From assembly GCA_007996965.1 (NCBI GenBank), contig BIMP01000001.1, forward strand, positions 1,116,001 to 1,180,000: a DNA stretch of 64,000 nucleotides. Reading direction: 5' to 3'. Shown piece after piece: positions 30,246 to 33,064 of this stretch. The translations under genes were made by a program, and so were the position numbers. Position 1 is the first letter of the stretch. Each line of letters opens with the position of its first letter. The notes under the pieces are model-generated. The model was not told where the DNA came from, made no database searches, and saw only the letters and a program-made list of their open reading frames with translations. This DNA comes from a cyanobiont of Ornithocercus magnificus. Lineage in GTDB: Bacteria; Cyanobacteriota; Cyanobacteriia; PCC-6307; Cyanobiaceae.

Positions 30246-30824
30246 TTAGCTAGCGCGATAAATGCGCTGCAGTAGCCAAAGACTGAGAATTAGCCCAACT
30301 AGATGAGCGAATAATACCTGGGTATTACTAAGCACTGAGAACACCTCAATTGGTGTGACTGGGTAGCCAATAAAGCTACGTGACCCATCGCCACTAGCTG
30401 TAGACCCGAAAAAGCCTGGAGCTTGCAGTGATGTCTGTAGGAAGAGACTACCAGACAGTGACTGATAGCCAATAGCTGCAAATACAAGACCTAGTAGATC
30501 GGCAAGCAATCCTCGCTTGAGCAAACGACCAGTCTGACCTCGTGTTGGCCGAACAGCACTGGAGCTGTTTAGAGCTCTACCAACACGCACAATGAGCCAC
30601 CCTTGCCAAAGACTGAACAGCAACACTAAAAATGATAGAGTAGTGAGTGAAAGACCAGGTCCCAAACCAAGAGCACGCTCTGAATCACCGGTGAGGTTGC
30701 TACCGATGTTGTTGAACGCTAATACCACCACCACTACAGTTCCAAGAGTTAGCTGAACCCAGAAGCGGATCCATCCCATCCGTCTTAAGACAAGCGAGAG
30801 AGACTGCAGATCCAGGTGATTCAT
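30246..30824 (-). CDS. DUF3611-family membrane protein
   Basis: 192 residues, four hydrophobic helices (about 19-40, 55-82, 107-127, 160-185). LVLRRMGWIRFWVQLTLG and LLKRGLLADLLGLVFAAIGY fit DUF3611, a cyanobacterial and plastid membrane family of unknown function. Its 5' end is close to ribF, which begins 90 bases beyond on the other strand. Confidence 0.78.
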   Translation of the reverse strand: MNHLDLQSLSLVLRRMGWIRFWVQLTLGTVVVVVLAFNNIGSNLTGDSERALGLGPGLSLTTLSFLVLLFSLWQGWLIVRVGRALNSSSAVRPTRGQTGRLLKRGLLADLLGLVFAAIGYQSLSGSLFLQTSLQAPGFFGSTASGDGSRSFIGYPVTPIEVFSVLSNTQVLFAHLVGLILSLWLLQRIYRAS

Positions 30825-30914
30825 TTATGTGGGCACAACGATACGCGGATAGTCATTCAAACTTGCCATCGAAGCCCGCCTACTACACGGGATTCTTCCT
30901 CCACCTCGGGAACC

Positions 30915-31910
30915 TTGATCTCTCTTTGTCCTCCTAAGCAGGCCCGCACGCCAACCTCTCTAGCACTGGGCAGCTTTGACGGCCTCCATTCGGGACACCG
31001 ACGAGTAATTGCAGAGGCTGTCAAGCAGGCACCCGGATTGCCTACTGTTGTGAGCTTTTGGCCCCACCCGCGCGAGGTACTATACAATGAACCGCGGATG
31101 CGACTGGATCTACCTGGTGAAAAGTTAGCGCTTTTGGACTCGCTGGGTGTTGACCAGTTGGTAATGGTGCCTTTTGACTATCGTCTAGCAGCGCTGACGG
31201 CTGCAGAGTTCTTCGATCAGATCTTACACAGCACATTGCAGGCGCGTCGTATTGTAGTAGGTGCAAACTTCCGCTTCGGACGTGGGCGCGAAGGTAGTAG
31301 CGAGACCTTGTGTGAATTAGGACGCCGCATGGGTATTGAGGTGAAGGTAGTGCCAATCCAAGAGGTAAGTGGTGATCGCATAAGTAGCAGCCGTATCCGT
31401 GAAGCTCTACATAGAGCGCAGCTGGCCCGGGCAGCCAAGCTCCTTGGTCGCTCGTATTGCTTCAGTGGCCGCGTGGTGCGTGGGCGGGGTCTAGGACGAG
31501 AGATTGGTTGGCCAACAGCGAACCTCTTAGTGGATGGTCGAAAATTCTTGCCAGCTCTAGGGGTTTATGCAGCCTGGGCGAAGCTGACTTCACCAGACAG
31601 CCCCCGCTATGACGCTGTAATGAACCTAGGATCCCAGCCTACGGTCGATCCTGCATCACCTTCTGCAGTAGAAGTACACCTGCTAGACCGCGAACTCACA
31701 CTAGACGGACGTGAATTGATGGTAGAGCCGGTGCTGCGAATTCGTAGTCAGCAGCGGTTTGCCTCACTAGAAGAACTCAGCGCTAGGATTAGCTATGATG
31801 CAGAACTGGCTCGCCGCTATTTGGCCAGGACCACAACACCACAAGATTCAGTTAATAGTGGGATAGGCATTAGTCAAACCCCATACGATGAAGGCGCTAA
31901 TACCGCCTAG
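30915..31910 (+). CDS. ribF: bifunctional riboflavin kinase / FAD synthetase
   Basis: About 331 residues if TTG at 30915 is the start (MISLCPPKQARTPTSLALG); the frame is open further upstream to 30816 but that part is unlike RibF and overlaps the divergent gene. FAD synthetase domain: GSFDGLHSGHRRVI, GANFRFGRGREGS, ISSSRIREAL; kinase domain: GLGREIGWPTANL and YDAVMNLGSQPTV. It makes FMN and FAD. The 3' end overlaps a small antisense gene (31848-31967). Confidence 0.93.
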   Translation: MISLCPPKQARTPTSLALGSFDGLHSGHRRVIAEAVKQAPGLPTVVSFWPHPREVLYNEPRMRLDLPGEKLALLDSLGVDQLVMVPFDYRLAALTAAEFFDQILHSTLQARRIVVGANFRFGRGREGSSETLCELGRRMGIEVKVVPIQEVSGDRISSSRIREALHRAQLARAAKLLGRSYCFSGRVVRGRGLGREIGWPTANLLVDGRKFLPALGVYAAWAKLTSPDSPRYDAVMNLGSQPTVDPASPSAVEVHLLDRELTLDGRELMVEPVLRIRSQQRFASLEELSARISYDAELARRYLARTTTPQDSVNSGIGISQTPYDEGANTA

Positions 31911-31967
31911 TAGTGCAACACCCCAAGCTAGGACATGCATTGTACTCTCTGAACTATGGTTGCTCAT
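31848..31967 (-). CDS. 39-aa single-span membrane protein
   Basis: ATG at 31965-31967 to TGA at 31848-31850. Sequence MSNHSSESTMHVLAWGVALL then GGISAFIVWGLTNAYPTIN: a polar N-terminus, one helix of about 20 residues and a short lumenal-type tail. It has the look of a small photosynthetic-complex subunit, though I cannot match it to a known Psb, Psa, Pet or Ndh protein. It overlaps the ribF 3' end antisense by 63 bases. Divergent from thiE. Confidence 0.65.
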   Translation of the reverse strand: MSNHSSESTMHVLAWGVALLGGISAFIVWGLTNAYPTIN

Positions 31968-31996
31968 AGACTAAATACTGTGCGACTACCATCAGA

Positions 31997-33064
31997 GTGC
32001 CACGGGATTCACGGCCAGAGCTGTTTTCGCCCGAAGAACACGTAGAGCGTTTGATTGACGCTAATCTTGATCGTGCCCGGGAAGGCCTACGAGTAGTTGA
32101 GGATTGGTGTCGATTTGGGCTAAACCGCAAGGACTTGGTAGTTACGATTAAAGGCTGGCGTCAGTGGCTAGGACACTGTCACCGTGACTGCTACAAGCTA
32201 GCTCGCTGTGCCGCTACCGATTGTGGTACTGGTCTCACCCACCAAGCTCAGAGACAGCGCGCAGCACCTGCAGCAATCGTAGCTGCTAACGCCGGCCGGG
32301 TACAAGAAGCCCTACGTGTGCTTGAGGAATTCGGTCGCTATAGAGATATAGAGCTAGCCACGACTGCTACAACGATTCGGTATAGACTCTATGACCTTGA
32401 AAGGGAGGTTTTAGTTGCTGGTACCGCTAAGGAGCGTCAGCGGCGACTAGCAGCATGCCAGCTTTGCTTAATTACATCCCCACGACCAGATTTGCTATCC
32501 ATGGTGGAAGCGGCGCTCACGGCTGGTGTACAGCTGGTACAGTTTCGCCCAAAATATAGAGATGCGGTAGACAGCTGCGATCGCAAAAGTCTAGAATTGG
32601 CCAAGGAACTGGCAGAACGATGTCGCAGTACTGGAGCTCTGTTTGTCGTCAACGATCGTGTTGACATTGCATTAGCTACAGACGCTGACGGCGTTCACTT
32701 AGGCCAGGACGATTTACCGATCGCTGTTGCACGACAGCTATTAGGAGTAGAGCGATTGGTGGGTCGAAGTACCCACTCACTACCACAGATCTATGAGGCA
32801 GAGCAAGAAGGATGCAACTACCTTGGAGTAGGGCCAGTTTATTGCACTAAATCTAAACCAGAACGGAGCGTTGCCGGCTTATCCTTTGTTCGTGAGGCAG
32901 CAGCAGCTACCTCACTTCCTTGGTTTGCTATTGGTGGAATCAGCCCTGAGCGGATCCCAGAGCTAAAATCTGCAGGGGCGCAGCGTATTGCAGTAATCGG
33001 AGTGGTTGCAGCATCACCAGACGCAAGGAGCGTCGTCAGGTCTTTGCTCAAGGCTTTAGCATGA
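31997..33064 (+). CDS. thiE: thiamine-phosphate synthase with N-terminal extra domain
   Basis: 355 residues from GTG at 31997. The first ~135 residues (ERLIDANLDRAREGLRVVED) are the helical extension found in cyanobacterial ThiE; the TIM-barrel part follows with LCLITSPRPD, VQLVQFRPKYRD, LFVVNDRVDIALATDADGVH, LGQDDLP and GPVYCTKSKPERSV. It joins the pyrimidine and thiazole moieties. Its stop overlaps thiS (ATGA at 33061-33064), linking it to the sulfur carrier for thiazole synthesis. Confidence 0.94.
   Translation: MPRDSRPELFSPEEHVERLIDANLDRAREGLRVVEDWCRFGLNRKDLVVTIKGWRQWLGHCHRDCYKLARCAATDCGTGLTHQAQRQRAAPAAIVAANAGRVQEALRVLEEFGRYRDIELATTATTIRYRLYDLEREVLVAGTAKERQRRLAACQLCLITSPRPDLLSMVEAALTAGVQLVQFRPKYRDAVDSCDRKSLELAKELAERCRSTGALFVVNDRVDIALATDADGVHLGQDDLPIAVARQLLGVERLVGRSTHSLPQIYEAEQEGCNYLGVGPVYCTKSKPERSVAGLSFVREAAAATSLPWFAIGGISPERIPELKSAGAQRIAVIGVVAASPDARSVVRSLLKALA

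Follow-up and report, generated by a model that had tools for sequence, protein, structure and literature searches.

NdhQ, reportedly named in an earlier paper, and its partner NdhP are single-span subunits of the NDH-1L complex that are unrelated in sequence, NdhP being recognizable by a C-terminal GNGTAH. The available excerpt of a structural study describes NdhD as sandwiched between NdhP and NdhQ in the distal membrane arm, with both small subunits contacting NdhD and NdhF, contacts that together with lipids and carotenoids keep NDH-1L together; the same excerpt states that in other species the complex disassembles upon deletion of either subunit (PMC6992706). Excerpted text of two further reports places a beta-carotene in contact with NdhD1, NdhF1 and NdhQ (PMC7021789) and assigns NDH-1L functions in respiration and cyclic electron flow (PMC9283085). 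Another small protein, the 37-residue high-light protein SliP4 (HliR1) of Synechocystis, is described in the accessible part of its report as binding NDH-1 and photosystems (PMC12850537). On the viral side, the excerpts at hand name ndhI, ndhD and ndhP in cyanophages (PMC10452541, PMC3877843).

Within a 64,000-nucleotide stretch of the genome of a cyanobiont of Ornithocercus magnificus (contig BIMP01000001.1 of GCA_007996965.1, positions 1,116,001 to 1,180,000; hereafter the window), we examined a 39-codon frame whose translation is MSNHSSESTMHVLAWGVALLGGISAFIVWGLTNAYPTIN followed by a stop. A preliminary description had presented this frame as intact from ATG to TGA, with one membrane helix and a 63-base overlap with ribF on the other strand, and all three features were borne out by translation of the minus strand and by the end of the listed ribF ORF (Table 1). 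The names ribF and thiE for the neighboring genes are presumptive, being taken from that description. The single helix was judged by eye, as was the fit of the protein to the NdhQ format of one membrane helix within about 36-46 residues. Upon aligning 30 homologues we found W29, G30, L31, A34, Y35 and P36 to be invariant, and a simple scan of positions 31700-32250 returned no promoter or terminator.

Table 1. Features of the window gene and of related host and phage loci (window positions, or positions within the named locus).
Feature	Position	Strand	Basis or remark
ndhQ (almost certain assignment), 39 codons, ATG to TGA	31848..31967	-	Translation, homologues, profile and PDB matches
Membrane helix, residues 11-31, HVLAWGVALLGGISAFIVWGL	31875..31937	-	Read from translation; aligns with NdhQ helix
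C-terminal motif WGLTNAYP, residues 29-36	31860..31883	-	Alignment of 30 homologues
63-bp antisense overlap of ndhQ with ribF ORF 3' end	31848..31910	.	ORF coordinates
ribF ORF as listed, start codon uncertain	30816..31910	+	Conserved neighbor; ORF list and family loci
thiE ORF as listed	31997..33064	+	Conserved neighbor, bait for named genomes; ORF list and family loci
Genus g18 genomes without ndhQ	L095-L099 (G136, G175, G118, G017, G107)		ribF-thiE regions retrieved, 31% GC
Proteins ending IWGLFNAYP or IGWGVMSAYP	L089:3861-3956, L090:3799-3873, L091:3635-3733, L092:3540-3599
NdhQ-like phage ORFs	L031:3998-4102, L032:3998-4102, L087 ORF ending 3072; also L221-L225, L101-L220
Tight viral ndhQ-ndhP pairs	L128:2159-2313; also L130, L133, L134, L164, L177, L180, L184, L212, L220
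52-aa phage ORF	L032:4099-4251; same place in L031
Viral NdhP with three-residue insertion	L197:2776-2904; L208, L161, L213 and others

A search of 60 genomes recovered the gene in 30 of 37 same-family genomes, the window's own included, at E <= 8.1e-7; among the seven without it, completeness is 53-88% in five, and the other two, G005 and G017, are near complete. All 30 recovered family loci carry the gene antisense to and upstream of thiE, and ribF flanks it in 29, the exception (L004) being a locus cut by a contig end. The preliminary description had proposed looking in relatives for conservation between ribF and thiE and would have taken its lack at this locus in close relatives as refuting the gene; what we observed is a conserved locus. 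Using a ThiE alignment as bait, we kept 80 named loci and then ran the family profile upstream of thiE, which located the gene in 76, always antisense, among them loci of Prochlorococcus, Synechococcus (including WH7803), Cyanobium, Vulcanococcus and Candidatus Synechococcus spongiarum. The gene was missed at four loci: L289, for which just 2 bp were available upstream of thiE, L307 (Microcystis elabens FACHB-917), L320 and L343. Among the 14 homologues of 39 codons, the count being confined to this length, pN was below pS in 91 of 91 pairs, with means of 0.20 and 0.74, respectively. Conservation of the frame is thus far beyond chance and the gene is under purifying selection.

Searches of Pfam, NCBIfam and the PDB with the single window sequence gave no useful match, and scanning 30 homologues against Pfam and NCBIfam gave scattered weak matches, none above cut-off. 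The same holds for NdhQ itself, as sequences from Thermosynechococcus-type and picocyanobacterial sources had no match above cut-off in either collection, for which reason ndhQ goes unrecognized and is easily lost in annotation. We then turned to a profile of the 30 homologues (A1), in which three rows were retained although they are fragments lacking a start codon. Against the PDB this profile matched the NdhQ chains 6khi_Q (E 2.4e-6), 6l7o_Q (1.5e-5) and 6hum_Q (4.9e-4), the next match being PsbX at E 0.35. The window protein resembles these Thermosynechococcus chains in length and in its one helix, aligns with them end to end, and has in common with them an N-terminal [DE]GADSP-like signature and a C-terminal W[AG]LxxAY. 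Picocyanobacterial members differ in a Ser/Asp-rich start, present in many, and in ending WGLxNAYP, whereas other families end WALxSAY.

To compare the places that each query finds, we searched one set of 146 genomes from the class with both A1 and 35 residues of NdhQ. Outside the family, A1 identified 96 places (E <= 8.1e-4) and NdhQ 98 (E <= 0.0019), of which 96 coincide, the disagreements lying in G089 and G128; inside the family, the NdhQ query recovered the G009 locus at E 3.1e-5. A pairwise search with T. elongatus NdhQ did not find the window's own copy, and it is the profile alone that links the two. A bridging sequence, L027 (MRFDGADHPILVILSGALILGGICALVIWGLTNAYPTT), is intermediate between this family and the MKFDGADSP... 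proteins that other families have. The window genome also encodes the NDH-1L partners NdhP (E 2.4e-12) and NdhF (over cut-off). Collectively, the conserved locus, the purifying selection, the PDB match and the 96 of 98 shared places make it almost certain that the ORF is the ndhQ of a picocyanobacterium, and these sequence comparisons show the predicted product to be an orthologue of the NdhQ of Thermosynechococcus and most other cyanobacteria examined. The proposal that the frame encodes a thylakoid-type small single-span subunit of a photosynthetic complex, left unnamed at the time, is therefore supported, and by sequence comparison the subunit is NdhQ of NDH-1L. The window NdhQ is ordinary in kind, well supported and usually unannotated.

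Short single helices look alike, and a subunit of another thylakoid complex, such as photosystem II or cytochrome b6f, might merely resemble NdhQ; PsbX is indeed the next PDB match. NdhQ, however, leads PsbX there by five orders of magnitude, and with nearly all places common to A1 and NdhQ we regard this reading as unlikely. SliP4 or a counterpart of it is a still weaker candidate, which we rejected as very improbable: it is alike in being small, with one membrane helix, and in working with NDH-1, according to the excerpted report (PMC12850537), but the N- and C-terminal ends of HliR1 deduced from primers in PMC5126843 do not match the window protein, no homologue beyond Synechocystis is reported there, and the places found by A1 are those found by NdhQ. 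The overlap with ribF could also point to a chance frame kept open by the ribF code. Nevertheless, the overlap is present in 15 of 29 loci and absent in 14, and the protein is conserved although those 14 lack it; this, along with the uniform excess of pS over pN, refutes a chance ORF, whose probability we consider practically negligible. Since only 15 of the 29 loci have it, the antisense overlap is not essential; it is incidental and plays no part in the role of NdhQ.

Having settled on NdhQ as the preferred identity, we carried its structural role over to the window gene by orthology from the published structures. The helix would insert at the distal end of the membrane arm of NDH-1L, with NdhD1 lying between it and NdhP; there it is predicted to touch NdhD1, NdhF1 and a beta-carotene and may help to fasten the NdhD1/NdhF1 module to the shared NDH-1M core. 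The complex held together in this way would transfer electrons of ferredoxin to plastoquinone and pump protons, and NDH-1L containing this NdhQ would serve cyclic flow around photosystem I as well as respiration.

The gene is missing from one genus (g18), in which none of the five sampled genomes (1.6-1.7 Mb, 100% complete) has an A1 match at E <= 1. A tblastn search of their ribF-thiE regions with the window protein likewise gave no match at E <= 1, and in the three regions inspected (L095, L097 and L098) ribF and thiE nearly abut with no ndhQ between them. All five genomes retain ndhP, which was present in 16 of 16 genomes tested, and NdhF over cut-off, as did 10 of 10 tested. By gene content, ndhQ has been lost from these genomes while ndhP and an ndhF persist, and genomes of this kind, with ndhP and without ndhQ, are natural knock-outs. 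Their size and low GC content suggest Prochlorococcus-like organisms, namely high-light Prochlorococcus. Separately, some Synechococcus-like genomes encode, away from ribF and thiE, second and distant small proteins ending IWGLFNAYP or IGWGVMSAYP (Table 1), which are possible NdhQ paralogues.

The window protein also matched 22 phage records at E <= 10, 19 of them Synechococcus phages or cyanophages, and the best phage type, MDKRKNDMKVIPSLVILGSITFFVIWGINNAYPV, lies one gene downstream of plastocyanin. When three phage peptides were used as queries, cyanophages alone were matched (71/71, 75/75 and 77/77 records), with many of the matches weak. The ORF is unannotated in nine of nine GenBank records (L031, L032, L087, L088 and L221-L225), none of which has an annotated CDS with its stop; eight were checked by script and L221 by eye. 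A pattern scan of viral contigs for WGxNNAYP gave at least 120 loci, as compared to 3 contigs, all with one sequence, for a control pattern of the same residues reordered; in 119 of the 120 matches listed a stop follows within seven codons. Because the control sequence likewise reaches a stop five codons on, nearness to a stop says little by itself, and what counts is how many different sequences there are; the viral contigs being redundant, the matches listed comprise 86 different stretches of 26 codons and 77 different peptides.

The phage family is diverse, with C-terminal ends of WG(L/I/M)NNAYP or WGLTHAYP. We aligned 30 phage sequences of 27-35 aa (A2), with start codons of our own choice; the invariance of the C-terminal motif in A2 is not independent evidence because the search pattern partly fixes it. 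Support independent of the pattern comes from the GenBank phages found by tblastn and from the loci reached through NdhP, with variants such as WGLTHAYP and WGLGNAYP. A2 matched the host profile A1 with 98.6% probability (hhalign), and its best places in picocyanobacterial genomes of the 60-genome set are the ndhQ loci. At E <= 10 its three PDB matches are all NdhQ chains, at E values of 0.2 to 2.8 that are suggestive but fall short of significance. The membrane part of the phage proteins has a mean pN of 0.42 and pS of 0.65, the high pN indicating loose selection there, and PHROGs returned two weak matches for the phage peptides, to families of unknown function. Together, these comparisons suggest that many cyanophages encode a putative NdhQ of their own that has escaped annotation.

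Comparing a library of labelled phage proteins with the 120 viral loci listed, we obtained a match to some labelled protein in 105. Within 2.5 kb, the neighbors among these 120 loci include gnd (27), DPS (22), talC (17), gp17 (17), petE (15) and zwf (10). Many NdhQ-like ORFs are followed at about 40 bp by talC or gnd, or preceded at 44 bp by petE; structural genes are near others, and the viral gene thus has no fixed place. NdhP is annotated in phage S-SCSM2R, which we confirmed against 6khi_P (E 3.7e-9), and a viral NdhP near the NdhQ-like ORF was observed in 38 of the 120 loci listed (E <= 1e-6), always on the same strand. Ten of the 120 form a tight ndhQ-ndhP pair in which NdhP starts 4-5 bp past the NdhQ-like stop (Table 1); these are near-identical and probably represent one lineage. 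In a reverse scan with an NdhP pattern, an NdhQ-like ORF was found in the flank of 28 of the 119 loci counted among the matches listed; three of these 119 (L101, L103 and L109) had also turned up in the WGxNNAYP scan. Within the flanks covered, many of them short, viral ndhP therefore frequently has no ndhQ close by.

From this gene content we infer, with fair confidence, that cyanophage NdhQ, often together with NdhP, in pentose phosphate/plastocyanin cassettes would support host NDH-1L during infection. In the infected host, the NdhD1/NdhF1 module would be clamped by the two viral subunits, NdhP and NdhQ, and this clamp may maintain or enlarge the NDH-1L pool and favor ATP and cyclic flow that depends on ferredoxin; NADPH and pentoses would meanwhile come from the phage enzymes Zwf, Gnd and TalC. 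In Prochlorococcus-like hosts without ndhQ, the phage may add a subunit absent from the host. We found no report of ndhQ in cyanophages in the open-licence papers searched, outside which an earlier mention is possible; there, PMC10452541 alone, in its available portion, mentions ndhQ and cyanophages together, as a reference title. The viral NdhQ-like family is a new lead that matters more than the window gene, as the viral ndhQ-ndhP pair and the occurrence of ndhQ beside zwf, gnd and talC raise the testable idea of a photosynthetic complex I whose membrane arm is rebuilt by phages.

In L032, and at the same place in L031, the NdhQ-like ORF is immediately followed by a small hydrophobic ORF of 52 aa with no relative in the PDB, NCBIfam or Pfam. 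A second class of viral NdhP, marked by a three-residue insertion (KGENxYY), was seen at several loci (Table 1).
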